From contig JASEGY010000085.1 of the NCBI GenBank assembly GCA_030019105.1, forward strand, positions 1 to 10,865: a DNA stretch of 10,865 nucleotides. The letters run 5' to 3'. The DNA comes from a bacterium. Its GTDB lineage: Bacteria; UBA9089; JASEGY01. A program made the position numbers and the translations under genes. Positions 2,494 through 10,709 of the stretch are shown in pieces; the stretch's first letter is position 1; every line of letters starts with the position of its first letter. Below the pieces are notes generated by a model. It was not told the origin of the DNA. It saw only the letters and a list, made by a program, of their open reading frames with translations, and ran no database searches.

Positions 2494-5400
2494 TTATTGG
2501 ACAACGCTCAGCAACTCCCGTAACTGCTGGTCAATAAGCTGCTCATTGCCTTCAAAATCAAGCAGTTTAAGCCCCACTCCTGTTTCAGCTTGTTTACGCG
2601 CGTCTTCGCCCTGGTTGCTTTCGTAGTAGGTCCAGCCAAGGTCTAAATAAAAATCCTTGCGCGGCATTAATCTGATGGCCTTTTGATATTTATCAATGGC
2701 TTCGGAAAGGCCCTGTTGTTTGTGATATTCTTTGGCCTGACCATAATAATGAATGGCCCCGTCAATCTGCCAGGGAGCAAAATCTTTTACTGCACGTTCC
2801 TCCTTAATTCCCAGCATCCTGACTTTTTGAGTCCCCTCTTTCCACTTAGCAGTTCGAGGCCAGTACTGCGGATGAGACAACAGGAACTGATGTTCGGCAA
2901 CTTCTTTGGGAAGCTGTCGCAGGCCTTTTTTATCTGTCGCGCCAATCTGGACCAGCTTAAAATCCTTACCGCCAGGCCGGCTCGGCCCGCCAGGCCGGCT
3001 CGGCCCCCCGGATTCAAACCACATTCGCCGGCTGTCCTCAGTTGAAGCCCACAATTTGTCATCCCCTTTTTCCAATAGTACCCAGACCTCAGCATCTTGA
3101 ATGGACTTTCCGTCGGACAAGTCAACTACCTTTAATTCAGCGCCAGGTTTAGGAGGCGGAGAAGGCGTTGGAGTTGGAGAAGGAGTGGGAGAAGGTGGAA
3201 TAGGAACCGGCTCTTCTGTCGCCCCATATTGCAGCAAAATGGTATAGTTGGGATATTCTTCGCCAATGGTTACTGCTTCCGGAAGGGGAGAAGAGCTTAC
3301 ATTCTCATTTGTCGGAATGATATCGATTTGCGTCTCCAATTTACCGGACCTGTCTGTCTGTCCGACCGGTTTTCCTCCCACCAGGACAGTCACTCCCCGT
3401 CTGGGTCGTTGAGTGGCTGATTCCTGGGCGGTCACGGCAATATTAAGCTTACGCCGGATTTCTTTATCACCAAGCGGGTATTCATATTGCCCCATCTTAA
3501 TATTAAGTGAAGAAGAAGCGGCAGGCGGCTTGTCATAGACTACCTCAAGCGAGCGGCCGGCCGGTGAGACAAATTCGAGTCGAACAGTCCCCTTCTCATC
3601 CGTGGCTCCAACACTGTAATTACGCAATTCATCCTTAATCGAAACCGGCACTCCCTCTAAGTCTTTTCCGAATCGGTCCACGCAATGAACAGTAACTACC
3701 CGTTTCCTGGCAAAGATAAATTCGACCTGCCAGGCCGGCTCGTCTCCACGCAAGGACTCGCCAGGGGAAATCTCGTAACTCAGGGTCGGTTCTGAAAGCG
3801 GAATTTCCTTCTTTTGGCCGAGCCGGCCTGGCGGGCCGAGCCGGCCTGGCGGGCCGAGCCGGCCTGGCAGAAGGTCGGTTTCAACAACAGCCCTGGCTAT
3901 CTTCCAGTCAGACTCCGCAGACTGCCAGGCCGGCTCGGCCTCAGGAAGCCGGGGGACATCCTTCTTAAATATCTTATCCTTAAGACTCCCTGAATCTAAA
4001 TCAGATTTAGGATAATCAGTGGTGATAACTACTTTGGTCGATTTCACATCCACCAGGACAGCCGCGCCGTCTTTATCGGTATAGACGGCCCGGTCCTTGT
4101 AGTTACCCGGATAGACGGCATTTCCAACCACCGGCTTAAGGCTTGTTCCGGATTCGGTTTCTAACTCCCTTGAGACCTTTACCTGAACTCTAATCGTATG
4201 TTTTTCATATAATTCACTGCTGGCCCGGGCCACCTCTTTTCTCTCTCTCCGCCAGGGAAAACTAAAGGGAGCGAAGCCTTCCAATCCAGCCTTCTGCCGG
4301 TTCAATCTCTCCAATTTGCTCCATTTCTCCTCCGGCGGCGCAGCCGGATCAGTCTCAGCGACTTCAGCCGCCGCCGTTTGGACATTAGTCATAATTTGTT
4401 TATTATGACCGTAGGAGACGCGCAAGCCTATCCCCAGCGCTACCGCTACTATTAATGCGGCGGCACAAAAAGCCAAACGGAAGCGGGTCCTGCGAATCTC
4501 TGCCTTTGTGGTTAAGTTCTCCAGGCCCGCCAGGCCGGCTCGGCCCGCCAGGCCGGCTCGGCCCGCCAGGCCGGCTCGGCCCCGGTCAGGAAAGATTACC
4601 TGCTTAAACAGGTCTTTGATAAAATAACCTTGTTTTCCTCCGAATACTGCCGGTAATGTGAGTGGCTGTCGATTAACCGATTCAGATGCTTGCTGCAATA
4701 CCAGATCGATAGGAGTTCCTTCTTGAGCCGCGCTGGTAAAATAAAACCCCCGAAAGATAGGTTTTTCAGAGGCTACTTCGGGGAATATTCCTCCCACAAA
4801 GTGAGCGAGTTTCCGGTAAGCTGCTTCAAATTCTAATGGAAAAGTGTAACCAGCGACGCGCTGCTCCACTGATGTCTTTTCTGAAACTAATTTTTGTAAC
4901 TGGCGGTCACTTAGCGACTGGAAAAGCCGATGACATTCTTCTTTAAAGACCACATCAGCCTTTTCCTCCCGGTCGCTTCTAAGCGTGCATCCCCAAACTT
5001 GCGTCCGTTCAGCCGTGCTTAAATCATCAAAAGATTGCGTAAACCCATAAATCTGGTCGCCTTTAGTAAAAACAAGATAGATGGGAACCCTGGTTTCTAA
5101 TTGTTCGATAAGGTCTTCAATATGTCGGCGAATCTTCTGAGCTTCCTGTTCGATGGCATATTCTTCTTTTTGTAATAGAGGAGTAATGTCTGTCGTCAGA
5201 ATCAGTCCATCAACAGGTCTCTTGCGCCGATGTTTTTTTAAGACGTTCAGCAGTCCCAACCATTCTGTCCTGACAGAGGCCTCATTACTATGAGTGACAT
5301 ACCGCCCGCTGGTGTCGAGGATAATAGCTTCTCTGGTGAAGAAGAAGTCACAGTTCCTGGTTTCGTCAATACCTTGCTGAAGCGGTCTTTCCTGGAGGGA

Positions 5401-5814
5401 GTCAATGTAAGAAAAATCCAGATTTGAATTTCTAAGGAGGGTGGTTTTCCCGTTTCCGGATGGCCCGATGACCATGTACCAGGGCAGGATGTATGGATCA
5501 GGTTTCTTGAAAATATTCAGCCAGCCACGACGGGCTTTTTTGCCCCTGAAATCCCGGACCGATTTAATGGCATTTCTTACCCGCTCTTCAAACCTGGTAA
5601 TATCTTCGGGCAGCGCTTCTTTCGCTCCTGCTCCTTCCTTTTGCCGCATCCATCTGATTAGAAGAAAGACACCCCATACTCCCAGGATCGCTACCGTGAG
5701 CATAATACGGACGTTAAAAGGCAGCCATCTTCCGCCTGGGATCCAGACCAAAAGGACCATAATGGGGACCCACTTCCCCGGAAGGTCTTTAATGTGTTGA
5801 AGTAAAAAACTCAT
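2494..5814 (-). CDS. tssM: atypical type VI secretion protein TssM (IcmF family)
   Basis: TssM is the large inner-membrane protein of the T6SS envelope complex. The N-terminal half is canonical. There are two membrane segments (about 15-25 and 33-55), a GTPase-like domain with Walker A GPSGNGKTT (117-125), the Walker B region ILDTSGRY (165-172) and TKGD (250-253), a linker ending IFPDR, and a third membrane segment (about 447-467). After about residue 540 it departs from the family. It has successive beta-rich segments resembling carboxypeptidase-regulatory or Ig-like folds (about 541-601, 706-762, 788-860, 892-960), a Pro-rich linker (870-890: PIPPSPTPSPTPTPSPPPKP) and a TPR-like helical end (1013-1080, with AIDKYQKAIRLMP). 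The usual IcmF C-terminal domain was not recognised. Ten copies of an 18-bp repeat add GRAGLA, PGRLGP and PSRPGG runs and two AEPAWQ-type sites. The start at 5814 has GAGGAG 6 bases upstream. Confidence 0.92.
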   Translation of the reverse strand: MSFLLQHIKDLPGKWVPIMVLLVWIPGGRWLPFNVRIMLTVAILGVWGVFLLIRWMRQKEGAGAKEALPEDITRFEERVRNAIKSVRDFRGKKARRGWLNIFKKPDPYILPWYMVIGPSGNGKTTLLRNSNLDFSYIDSLQERPLQQGIDETRNCDFFFTREAIILDTSGRYVTHSNEASVRTEWLGLLNVLKKHRRKRPVDGLILTTDITPLLQKEEYAIEQEAQKIRRHIEDLIEQLETRVPIYLVFTKGDQIYGFTQSFDDLSTAERTQVWGCTLRSDREEKADVVFKEECHRLFQSLSDRQLQKLVSEKTSVEQRVAGYTFPLEFEAAYRKLAHFVGGIFPEVASEKPIFRGFYFTSAAQEGTPIDLVLQQASESVNRQPLTLPAVFGGKQGYFIKDLFKQVIFPDRGRAGLAGRAGLAGRAGLAGLENLTTKAEIRRTRFRLAFCAAALIVAVALGIGLRVSYGHNKQIMTNVQTAAAEVAETDPAAPPEEKWSKLERLNRQKAGLEGFAPFSFPWRRERKEVARASSELYEKHTIRVQVKVSRELETESGTSLKPVVGNAVYPGNYKDRAVYTDKDGAAVLVDVKSTKVVITTDYPKSDLDSGSLKDKIFKKDVPRLPEAEPAWQSAESDWKIARAVVETDLLPGRLGPPGRLGPPGRLGQKKEIPLSEPTLSYEISPGESLRGDEPAWQVEFIFARKRVVTVHCVDRFGKDLEGVPVSIKDELRNYSVGATDEKGTVRLEFVSPAGRSLEVVYDKPPAASSSLNIKMGQYEYPLGDKEIRRKLNIAVTAQESATQRPRRGVTVLVGGKPVGQTDRSGKLETQIDIIPTNENVSSSPLPEAVTIGEEYPNYTILLQYGATEEPVPIPPSPTPSPTPTPSPPPKPGAELKVVDLSDGKSIQDAEVWVLLEKGDDKLWASTEDSRRMWFESGGPSRPGGPSRPGGKDFKLVQIGATDKKGLRQLPKEVAEHQFLLSHPQYWPRTAKWKEGTQKVRMLGIKEERAVKDFAPWQIDGAIHYYGQAKEYHKQQGLSEAIDKYQKAIRLMPRKDFYLDLGWTYYESNQGEDARKQAETGVGLKLLDFEGNEQLIDQQLRELLSVVQ
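2973..3008 (-). repeat. two tandem copies of the 18-bp repeat (reads PSRPGG)
   Basis: Units start at 2973 and 2991, in the same orientation as the 4531 array but in a different coding frame, reading GGPSRPGGPSRPGG (TssM residues 936-949). The array interrupts a region just before the TPR-like C-terminus. Confidence 0.93.
3731..3742 (-). repeat. partial single copy of the repeat (reads DEPAWQ)
   Basis: CAGGCCGGCTCG on the plus strand is a 12-base match to the 18-bp unit. It gives EPAWQ (TssM residues 692-696), in the same frame as the copy at 3926. Two independent EPAWQ sites 65 residues apart make chance similarity less likely, but this copy is short. Confidence 0.7.
3816..3868 (+). repeat. 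three tandem copies of the 18-bp repeat in inverted orientation (reads PGRLGP)
   Basis: Units start at 3816, 3834 and 3852 with the form GGCCGAGCCGGCCTGGCG on the plus strand. This is the reverse complement of the unit in the other arrays. On the tssM coding strand they read PGRLGP repeatedly (residues 650-666). The array lies between two beta-rich segments. Confidence 0.95.
3926..3940 (-). repeat. single copy of the 18-bp repeat core (reads EAEPAWQ)
   Basis: The plus strand carries CAGGCCGGCTCGGCC once, in the same orientation as the 4531 and 2973 arrays but in a third reading frame. In TssM it yields AEPAWQ (residues 626-631). Only 15 of the 18 unit bases match. Confidence 0.85.
4531..4584 (-). 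repeat. three tandem copies of an 18-bp GC-rich repeat (reads GRAGLA)
   Basis: Three units start at 4531, 4549 and 4567, of the form CAGGCCGGCTCGGCCCGC on the plus strand; the last differs only at its 3' end. On the coding strand they read as three GRAGLA repeats at TssM residues 412-429. This is exactly the linker between the cytoplasmic domain (ending IFPDR) and the third membrane segment, a place where extra residues are likely to be tolerated. Confidence 0.95.
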
Positions 5815-9203: not shown

Positions 9204-9228
9204 CGGCCATCAATTCTAATTCGACCTT
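9204..9228 (-). repeat. 25-bp direct repeat, copy B, in the tssK-DUF4160 gap
   Basis: This is the second copy of the tssK 3' end segment at 9359-9383, with one mismatch. Read in the tssK frame it continues as VELELMAVEEAGSRQ and runs on to a TAA that overlaps the DUF4160 start codon (TAATG). That layout is what an undisturbed tssK end, closely coupled to the next gene, would look like. Confidence 0.85.
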
Positions 9229-9354: not shown

Positions 9355-10709
9355 TCAGCGGCCATCAATTCTAATTCCACCTTCATAAACCCGGGAGGAA
9401 CATAAATAGCCAGAGATTTTGACTGCTGAATATTTACCCAATAATCCCCCCGCAAGTCCAGGCTAAAGTAACAATATCCTAATTTCTTGGGAATAGCCGC
9501 GGGTGGGGATGGTAAATGGATGAGAGCAATACCCCGCAGGGCCTTGCCAATGAGCAGATTAATTTCTCCGGCCGAAGCGATTTTCACCCTCTGTAATATC
9601 CCGTCAATCATCTCTCTCTGGCTCCCTTCCCCCTTAACGGCCAAATAAAATCTGTAGGAAGGGGCAAACAGATAATCATCTATGGTTGCCTCGTAGATGG
9701 ATTCGCTCACTTTTCTCAAGGGGATCAATTTGTACATGGTAACCGGGGCCAGCATCTGTAAGAACTCCCGGATTACGGTGTCAAGATAACCAAAACAATG
9801 CGCCGGATTTTTGTGGTTATAGCCGGGCAAATCCATCGGCCGGATATTGGCGTTAAAGGCCGTTATAGTTCCGGCAAACCGCAAAAGAAGACGGAAGAGT
9901 TCTTCCGGATGTATCTCCTGCATACGATAGAAATGATAAACTTCCGGGATAAAGGAATTAATGGTATGCAGGAACCAGAGATTGGAGACATCGGCTGCCC
10001 CAAATTCGTACAGTCCACCCTCCCTCTGCCGGAATTGATCTGACAGCTCATTGCTTTTGGTGGTAAGGACCTCCATCAGGCGGCCAAGCATCTTCATTAA
10101 TTGCGGTGAGGCAGAAATAGATAGACACGGCGGGATATAGTCATCATGCAGCACAATAGCGCCGCTCGGAGATCGACCTAATTCAGCAATCTTAAGGCAG
10201 TCGTGATCATCCAGAAGTTCTCCACCAAACATAATTTTGAAATTCTTTTTAGCTACGGGAATTTCCTGCTCATTCTCTGAGTCTCCGGTGTTTTCATCTA
10301 CTACCCGCACAAATTCCCTGGAATACCGGGTCTCATGGGGGCCTTTCCTGCTTTCAAGGGAGCAGCTTGCCTTGCCGGGTCGTTCTACCGGTATGGCTAA
10401 ATGCACGTCAAGGGTACTCAGAGACGGGCCAAAATGTTCTTCAATCGGTCGACTTAACGGCGACTCATCTGTCCGGGGAATATCGACGGGTGTGCCCCCG
10501 GGAAGTATCCCCTGACAGGATACCAGGATAAAATTACCATTCTCCAGGGCCTCTTGATTTATCTCCAGGCCTATTAGTCCCCAACCAAACGGCAGAACAG
10601 ACCTCATCCGAAAATCAAGGAGACCTTCGTAATAATGGTCCTGCTGTTGAAAATGCTGCGGGGTAAGGAACATCCCCTCGTTCCAGACAATCTTGTGATA
10701 CGGTGGCAT
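9348..10709 (-). CDS. tssK: type VI secretion baseplate protein TssK
   Basis: TssK (ImpJ/VasE) is the cytoplasmic trimeric adaptor that links the T6SS baseplate to the TssL/TssM membrane complex. The protein is 453 aa, the usual family length. It opens with the family signature VVWxEGMFLxPQHFQQQ in the form IVWNEGMFLTPQHFQQQ (residues 7-23), followed by PFGWGL (41-46), a hallmark of the N-terminal shell domain. The start at 10709 is supported by AGAGGTGA about 8 bases upstream and by the position of the N-terminal motif. The 3' end looks altered: the last codons (ELELMAAEQ, stop at 9348) lie inside the first copy of a 25-bp direct repeat, and a second copy 155 bases downstream continues the same reading as ELELMAVEE for about 12 further residues. 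The present C-terminus may therefore be shorter than the ancestral one. It is the first gene of the cluster. Confidence 0.96.
   Translation of the reverse strand: MPPYHKIVWNEGMFLTPQHFQQQDHYYEGLLDFRMRSVLPFGWGLIGLEINQEALENGNFILVSCQGILPGGTPVDIPRTDESPLSRPIEEHFGPSLSTLDVHLAIPVERPGKASCSLESRKGPHETRYSREFVRVVDENTGDSENEQEIPVAKKNFKIMFGGELLDDHDCLKIAELGRSPSGAIVLHDDYIPPCLSISASPQLMKMLGRLMEVLTTKSNELSDQFRQREGGLYEFGAADVSNLWFLHTINSFIPEVYHFYRMQEIHPEELFRLLLRFAGTITAFNANIRPMDLPGYNHKNPAHCFGYLDTVIREFLQMLAPVTMYKLIPLRKVSESIYEATIDDYLFAPSYRFYLAVKGEGSQREMIDGILQRVKIASAGEINLLIGKALRGIALIHLPSPPAAIPKKLGYCYFSLDLRGDYWVNIQQSKSLAIYVPPGFMKVELELMAAEQ
9359..9383 (-). repeat. 25-bp direct repeat, copy A, inside the tssK 3' end
   Basis: This 25-base segment encodes the TssK C-terminal residues KVELELMA. 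It matches 9204-9228 in 24 of 25 positions, the mismatch being C versus G. The copies are 155 bases apart, start to start, and bracket an antitoxin-like relic. They could be a target duplication, or the product of a recombination or slippage event that duplicated the end of tssK. Confidence 0.85.

Follow-up and report, generated by a model that had tools for sequence, protein, structure and literature searches.

An 18-bp repeat unit dispersed in tssM and other genes of a UBA9089 bacterium, and its possible nature as a self-targeting mobile element

Repeat arrays in tssM

We have analysed a stretch of 10,865 nucleotides (the window; contig JASEGY010000085.1 of assembly GCA_030019105.1, from a bacterium of the GTDB lineage UBA9089; JASEGY01), in which the gene tssM hosts five arrays of an 18-bp repeat unit. 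Here we describe these arrays, the dispersal of the unit through the genome under study (G000; 4.34 Mb in 1053 contigs) and the sites that correspond to its arrays in a same-genus relative (G001), and we consider whether the unit is a mobile element.

The tssM gene is a single open frame of 1106 codons, and domain matches placed genes with DotU and VasE domains, which we take to be TssL and TssK, in its neighborhood. A search with GCCAGGCCGGCTCGGCC, allowing up to 3 mismatches, returned 10 matches in the window, every one of them inside tssM and with an 18-bp period; 9 units were exact and 1 had 2 mismatches. In 200 dinucleotide shuffles of the window, the mean was 0.04 matches and the maximum 1. 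The window had no match in Rfam at gathering thresholds.

The first-pass annotation had described these ten units as arrays of 3, 3, 2, 1 and 1, in two orientations and four frames, and our count and translation agreed with that description, three of the frames being used in one orientation and one in the other. The peptides that it had listed, GRAGLA, PSRPGG, AEPAWQ and, for the inverted array, PGRLGP, were likewise reproduced, with the addition that the degenerate copy is read DEPAWQ; its range of 2973..4584 was correct as to location, with bounds that were off by 3 bp. It had also stated that the unit is free of stop codons in all six frames, which is true of the tandem consensus and untrue of 5 unit/frame combinations among the 44 distinct variants. 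Stop-freedom is not remarkable given the GC richness of the unit, because 91% of random 18-mers at 89% GC share it. Comparison with tssM of relatives was another of its suggestions. Alignment with the G001 gene, which is 85% identical to the window tssM at the nucleotide level, showed one shared array and, at the four others, extra lengths of 54, 18, 54 and 36 bp in the window gene (Table 1). Two further gaps, of 6 and 9 bp, were seen in this alignment, the 6-bp one adjoining the shared unit.

Table 1. Positions of tssM, its arrays (window coordinates, including the leading Y base of each array) and two candidate enzyme genes elsewhere in G000
Feature	Position	Strand	Remarks
tssM, IcmF-related N-terminal domain, host of five arrays	2494..5814	minus	ORF (open reading frame) of 1106 aa; PF14331, E=3.5e-69; G001 orthologue 83% identical (aa)
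2-unit array, read PSRPGG	2970..3005	+	absent from G001: 36-bp gap, gapless empty site idx104
Single degenerate unit (2 mismatches), read DEPAWQ	3728..3745	+	sole tssM array common to G001, intact there
3-unit inverted array, read PGRLGP	3816..3869	-	absent from G001: 54-bp gap, gapless empty site idx108
Single unit, read AEPAWQ	3923..3940	+	absent from G001: 18-bp gap
3-unit array, read GRAGLA	4528..4581	+	absent from G001: 54-bp gap, gapless empty site idx107
REP-associated tyrosine transposase relative, only Y1 transposase match in G000	G000:C175 (L130 49-681)	minus	
Reverse transcriptase-TPR-AEP primase fusion	G000:C292 (L158 399-2714)		PF00078, PF22548; CRISPR-associated primase-polymerase model NF040561 above cut-off

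Dispersal in the genome and empty sites in a relative

A genome-wide search for the unit, also proposed in the first-pass annotation, showed that it is far from confined to tssM. We found 185 exact copies of its 17-mer core in G000, divided 90 to 95 between the two strands, compared with 0 for the reversed pattern that served as control, and 287 copies at up to 2 mismatches, compared with 3 for the control. Among the 61 genomes searched, in which the family is represented by G000 and G001 alone, the exact core was found only in these two, with 3 copies in G001. At up to 2 mismatches, 7 copies were found in G001, where the reversed control gave 4; a single copy turned up in the remaining 17 genomes of the phylum taken together, and 3 in G019, a genome outside the phylum. 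A two-unit pattern had 0 matches in GTDB genome contigs, a collection from which the own or near genomes are possibly excluded, and a dimer of the unit had 0 in viral contigs.

For a census we read 448,421 bases of G000, almost all of them picked for holding units (8 short contigs excepted) and together covering 140 of the 185 exact copies. This gave 109 array calls with 219 units, 138 of which were the exact consensus with C or T as first base; after merging of one locus called on both strands and of two compound arrays, there were 105 loci of 1-7 units each. A compound array at L091 6616-6694 has a period that is partly 21 bp (18+3), likewise divisible by three. Many other dispersed short repeats were seen in G000 and G001, in families that largely differ between the two genomes.

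Gene calls in these stretches were made not with a standard gene finder but with a simple script that scores ORFs of at least 60 codons by codon log-odds. By these calls, 86 loci lay in genes and 10 between genes, 2 were partial, and a further 7 lay at contig ends; the in-gene share of 86/98 (88%, contig-end loci excluded) compares with 70.5% coding sequence in the same stretches (p=8e-5). Of the loci in genes, 39 were on the gene's strand (14, 16 and 9 in the three frames) and 47 on the opposite strand (18, 16 and 13), with no departure from even use (p=0.63), and the four frames that had been reported for tssM therefore become all six when the count is extended genome-wide. Placement in genes is not general among G000 repeats, because 11 other dispersed repeat words had only 23 of 125 places within called genes in the same stretches; one of these words, ATCCGCAATCCGCAA, nevertheless lay within called genes at 15 of its 21 places.

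The stretches read contain 56 host genes. Among them are uvrA, glyS (two arrays), hemC, priA, a recQ-family gene, hypF (two), mutS2, wecB, a prephenate dehydrogenase relative whose match is below its cut-offs, and a fused gene resembling the type VI secretion sheath, with three arrays. Alignment to solved homologues showed that the uvrA unit, read CQAGSA, amounts to exactly six extra residues inside a well-aligned stretch and that the hemC array (the PPGRLGPPGRLGP region) likewise adds residues inside such a stretch; for the wecB insert, the alignment to a solved relative was less clean. The four tssM peptides GRAGLA, PSRPGG, AEPAWQ and PGRLGP were found in 0 of the matches listed (120 of 251 TssM homologues), two of which had EPAW, one of them at the shared site in G001, and the earlier proposal that the DNA rather than the protein sequence is conserved is thereby upheld. 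Of the two findings named beforehand as able to refute the first-pass interpretation, a unit missing from the rest of the genome and peptide runs kept in distant TssM homologues, neither was obtained, and that interpretation is largely supported. Some genes hold clusters of arrays: with 140 arrays assumed genome-wide, the Poisson probability was about 1e-7 for the 5 arrays in tssM and about 1e-10 for 6 arrays in one 712-codon gene of stretch L137.

We then compared the occupied sites with 1.50 Mb fetched from G001, in which both flanks could be located for 38 array calls, or 35 loci when merged. We defined a gapless empty site as one with at least 24 of 40 bases identical and no gap. By this definition, 20 of the 35 loci were gapless empty sites in G001, all 20 of them in called genes. 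An indel lay nearby at 13 loci, including the shared tssM unit, several of these with zero net length difference and others with a difference of up to 60 bp; one locus was gapless but one base short of the identity cut-off, and at one G001 lacked the entire aligned stretch. The inserts at the gapless sites consist of whole units (18n bp), in one phase and in either orientation, and separate bases that are adjacent in the sister species; since C is found at both ends, the boundary of the insert can slide by one base. The reverse case was also observed. An array of three units in G001 (C6:4810-4862) has no counterpart in G000, with a net difference of 54 bp at a site that is not gapless and a frame that remains open. 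Because G001 thus holds its own array at a place that is empty in G000, insertion has occurred on both branches, and insertion activity is present in two lineages. Taken together, the copy numbers and empty sites lead us to regard the unit, on balance, as a dispersed micro-repeat whose spread takes place at the level of DNA and was active until recently.

Target, fold and context of the unit

Target preference was examined at sites lying outside element B (a second repeat, described below) and outside the GTTTGGGC element, with flanks that were long enough and free of units. When arrays were removed from the 76 non-nested sites, the flanks had C at -1 in 91%, at +1 in 75% and at +4 in 58%, and G at -4 in 49%, at +5 in 43% and at +6 in 46%. 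A matrix derived from 57 occupied sites was then applied to unoccupied G001 sequence at 19 other loci, all gapless. The actual sites had a median rank of 4% of local positions (p=3e-8), and of 14% when only positions with C at -1 were considered (p=1.5e-4); on the reverse strand the median rank was 56% (p=0.75). The preference is thus strand-specific. When the same matrix was run over the 36 phases of an array, the unit-unit junction scored highest, at 10.6, followed by a phase on the other strand at 8.4. The target is thus similar to the place where two units of an array adjoin, CGGCC|CGCCGGG, and an existing array should accordingly be a strong target; tandem arrays would be explained by such a junction-like target.

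At several sites (for example CCTTC|AAAAGAAGG in tssM), the target appeared by eye to be the tip of an inverted repeat. The enrichment was weak, and we make no claim for it: 21 G001 sites gave a mean rank of 0.46 (p=0.14), or 0.44 when matched for C at -1 (p=0.05), and the 76 G000 sites gave 0.425 in comparison with CY-matched positions (p=0.02).

The unit, YGCCAGGCCGGCTCGGCC, can form a 5-bp stem, GGCCG-GCT-CGGCC. Its folding energy (-5.4 kcal/mol as DNA and -7.2 as RNA, with z of only -1.75 and -0.78) is in itself unremarkable. Single units folded with the 5-bp stem, one variant adopting another register as RNA. Variants of the unit retain the hairpin through paired changes. All 38 distinct 17-mers together have 8 doubly changed stem cells, which involve three of the five pairs, and every one of the 8 is Watson-Crick; a count of 8 was reached in 57 of 20000 shuffles, and registers slid by 1 to 3 gave 0 to 2; an alignment took 23 of the 44 distinct units. 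One-sided changes were present too, at all five pairs, and the paired counts are inflated by common descent of the units. Quasi-palindrome correction could yield the same paired changes without selection.

Some units are nested in element B, a dispersed hairpin repeat with the core GTTCGGGGCACCCGC|TTGCGGGTCGTCG, at whose loop the unit sits. Genome-wide, the filled form of B had 28 matches in G000, one of which is actually an empty B, compared with 11 for the empty form; in G001 the empty form had 34 matches and the filled form 3, of which one is convincing. At two loci, idx3 and idx14, B is filled in G000 and empty in G001, which supports insertion of the unit into a pre-existing B at least twice; joint spread of B and the unit may explain other filled copies. 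Neither this nesting, nor the target rule, nor the hairpin with its paired changes had been noticed in the first-pass annotation. Element B itself, of which G000:C123 514-640 (L048) is an example, often lies within called genes, as it does at 10 of its 12 places in the stretches that we read. The unit is also hosted by a further repeat context, GTTTGGGC[unit]CAGTCGG and its close variants, which was called intergenic and was seen in L035, L086, L091, L093 and L131.

Two other repeats were seen in the window. A tandem 9-bp repeat, AAAGACACC (with variants), occupies 2422-2457, close to where the ORF at 1986-2450 has its upstream end. A 25-bp direct repeat (96%), with copies at 9204-9228 and 9359-9383 and thus a spacing of 155 bp, lies in the region of the 3' end of the VasE/TssK-like gene.

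Mechanism and comparison with known repeats

One interpretation, to which we would assign a probability of about one half, is that the 18-bp unit is a self-targeting mobile element, whose landing at junction-like sites produces both tandem arrays and new loci and lengthens housekeeping proteins, whatever the frame, by six residues or a multiple of six. As to how it might be copied, we infer, and lean somewhat towards, template switching from a junction-like site to an array and back. At such a site, a strand with ..GGCC or ..C at its end would pair with an array elsewhere, copy one or more units and return at the same microhomology. The outcome would be an insert of 18n bp in fixed phase, with duplication of at most 1-2 bp and with tandem growth, and a dedicated transposase would not be needed. 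A unit length divisible by 3 and an almost constant freedom from stops would allow insertions to persist in genes, and the peptides would be a by-product.

Several observations count against this interpretation. An enzyme would equally give a fixed phase over some 100 loci. By our cut-off 15 of the 35 comparable loci were not gapless, which limits the demonstration of an exact 18n length to a part of the 35. Some targets bear little likeness to the junction: five of the 19 tested sites ranked worse than 20%, the worst being idx108 in tssM at 60%, and contiguous microhomology was short, with a mean of about 2 nt on the left. The first base of the array was T in 48 of 109 calls, compared with 8 of 110 later units, for which the model offers no explanation; the left match was no different between C-first and T-first arrays (p=0.17), and the base after the array, which was T in 9 of 26 T-first and 3 of 47 C-first arrays (p=0.003), is likewise unexplained. 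Finally, the enrichment in genes is not what neutral insertion predicts, and the clustering in tssM and the L137 gene is left unexplained by the model.

Some of the same observations could be accounted for if the unit were moved by a dedicated enzyme, such as a reverse transcriptase acting on a small hairpin RNA, a transposase of the HUH/REP type, or a recombinase that recognises the junction. Such an enzyme would fit the single phase in which entire units lie at the gapless sites, the strand specificity of the target and the paired stem changes, as in a folded intermediate. G000 encodes a REP-associated tyrosine transposase relative, which scored 68 bits with NF047646 (cut-off 80), and also has reverse transcriptase matches, including one fused to TPR and AEP primase; in G001, with its few copies, neither family was found. 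This correlation, however, comes from two genomes only, and G001 gained an array too. No gene is linked to the unit: the sole Y1 transposase found in G000 has its nearest unit on the contig 2.4 kb off, past a 679-aa ORF, and a CRISPR-associated primase model is matched above its cut-off by the fused reverse transcriptase-primase. We therefore hold a dedicated enzyme to be a tentative alternative, possible yet the less probable course. Separately, a reverse transcriptase match with one internal TGA was seen at G000:C213 (L203, about 3115-3693).

Explanations other than mobility fared less well. Dispersal by selection as a functional signal (a protein-binding site, an uptake or recombination signal, or an mRNA hairpin) would fit the high uniformity of the units and a stem maintained through paired changes, but it is improbable in view of the lack of gene-strand bias, the clustered rather than spaced placement and the scarcity of units in G001, with 7 copies at up to 2 mismatches against 4 for the reversed control. 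If the arrays were old, inherited in the genus and precisely lost in G001, as the one shared tssM unit might suggest, about 34 whole-unit losses with intact frames would be required; moreover, solved HemC and UvrA from other organisms are also without the insert and many units are identical to the consensus, and we regard such a history as very unlikely. Selection on the encoded peptides, suggested by the location of most arrays within reading frames, is contradicted by the even use of six different peptides from one DNA unit, by their absence, apart from EPAW in two, from the 120 TssM relatives listed and by their status as extra residues in UvrA and HemC, and we give it next to no credence. 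An assembly artefact, which might be suspected in a metagenome-assembled genome of so many contigs with 7 of 105 loci at contig ends, is the hardest to believe: flanks at gapless sites are collinear with an independent genome, host frames remain open, and the second genome carries its own copies.

For most very small bacterial repeats no mechanism is known to us, and it is rare that a filled site can be compared directly with its empty counterpart. The pair of genomes studied here yields 20 gapless filled/empty pairs, and the phase, unit and target rule are precise enough for a laboratory test. If the self-targeting interpretation is correct, the unit would rank among the smallest pieces of spreading DNA known and would be a continuing source of in-frame protein insertions, which suggests a route for core proteins to gain six-residue blocks in bulk without peptide selection.

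The unit did not occur as a string in the papers searched, and a literature search covering the titles and abstract openings listed, with few subscription papers, found no 18-bp in-gene tandem mobile repeat, which is weak evidence of absence. Miniature inverted-repeat transposable elements of bacteria (Correia/NEMIS, ERIC) resemble the unit in that some are fused in frame to genes, and differ in being 100-200 bp long, mostly with terminal repeats and target duplication (PMC2229807); our gapless empty sites show no duplication of more than 1 bp, although a 2-bp CY duplication is possible at some. The TAACTGA repeats of Beggiatoaceae are also dispersed, short, tandem direct repeats of one bacterial lineage, but they are heptamers and are termed intergenic in the title of their description, which, with the opening of its abstract, mentions no in-gene insertion (PMC4679880). 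With the repetitive extragenic palindromes (REP) and REPINs that accompany REP-associated tyrosine transposases (RAYT), the unit shares a short hairpin and a genome that encodes a relative of the transposase. However, a GTAG/CGTC tag stands beside the REP hairpin, and neither tetranucleotide is in the consensus unit; REPs are extragenic, whereas 10 of our 98 loci are intergenic (PMC3116915, PMC3733652). No unit directly adjoins the transposase gene of G000. Rickettsia palindromic elements (RPE) lie in frame in genes of conserved proteins, with a peptide that is probably incidental, and are palindromes of 105-146 bp, in contrast to an 18-bp unit that lacks a long palindrome (PMC2229807). The analogy with RPE drawn in the first-pass annotation consequently holds for the logic (in-frame, DNA-level and coding-compatible insertion, here with 86 of 98 loci in called genes) and breaks down for size and structure; our unit, moreover, is found in 56 called genes of the stretches read, in all six frames and often in tandem.

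Together with RPE, the closest likeness is to the small dispersed repeats (SDR) of cyanobacteria, which, reportedly (Elhai et al., 2008), are 21-27 bp long, form hairpins with compensatory changes and can sit inside other repeats. The paired stem changes of our unit and its nesting in element B are reminiscent of these reported properties, and its 18-bp period and 18n insertions differ from the reported SDR lengths. Size of about 20 bp and recent mobility are further points in common (cyanobacterial SDR as cited in PMC2884548), the latter being seen here in the 20 of 35 gapless empty sites. The unit is set apart from SDR by its chiefly intragenic placement, its exact tandem units and a target that resembles its own junction. 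A self-targeting unit of 18 bp would, if this interpretation is true, be the smallest mobile DNA known to us.
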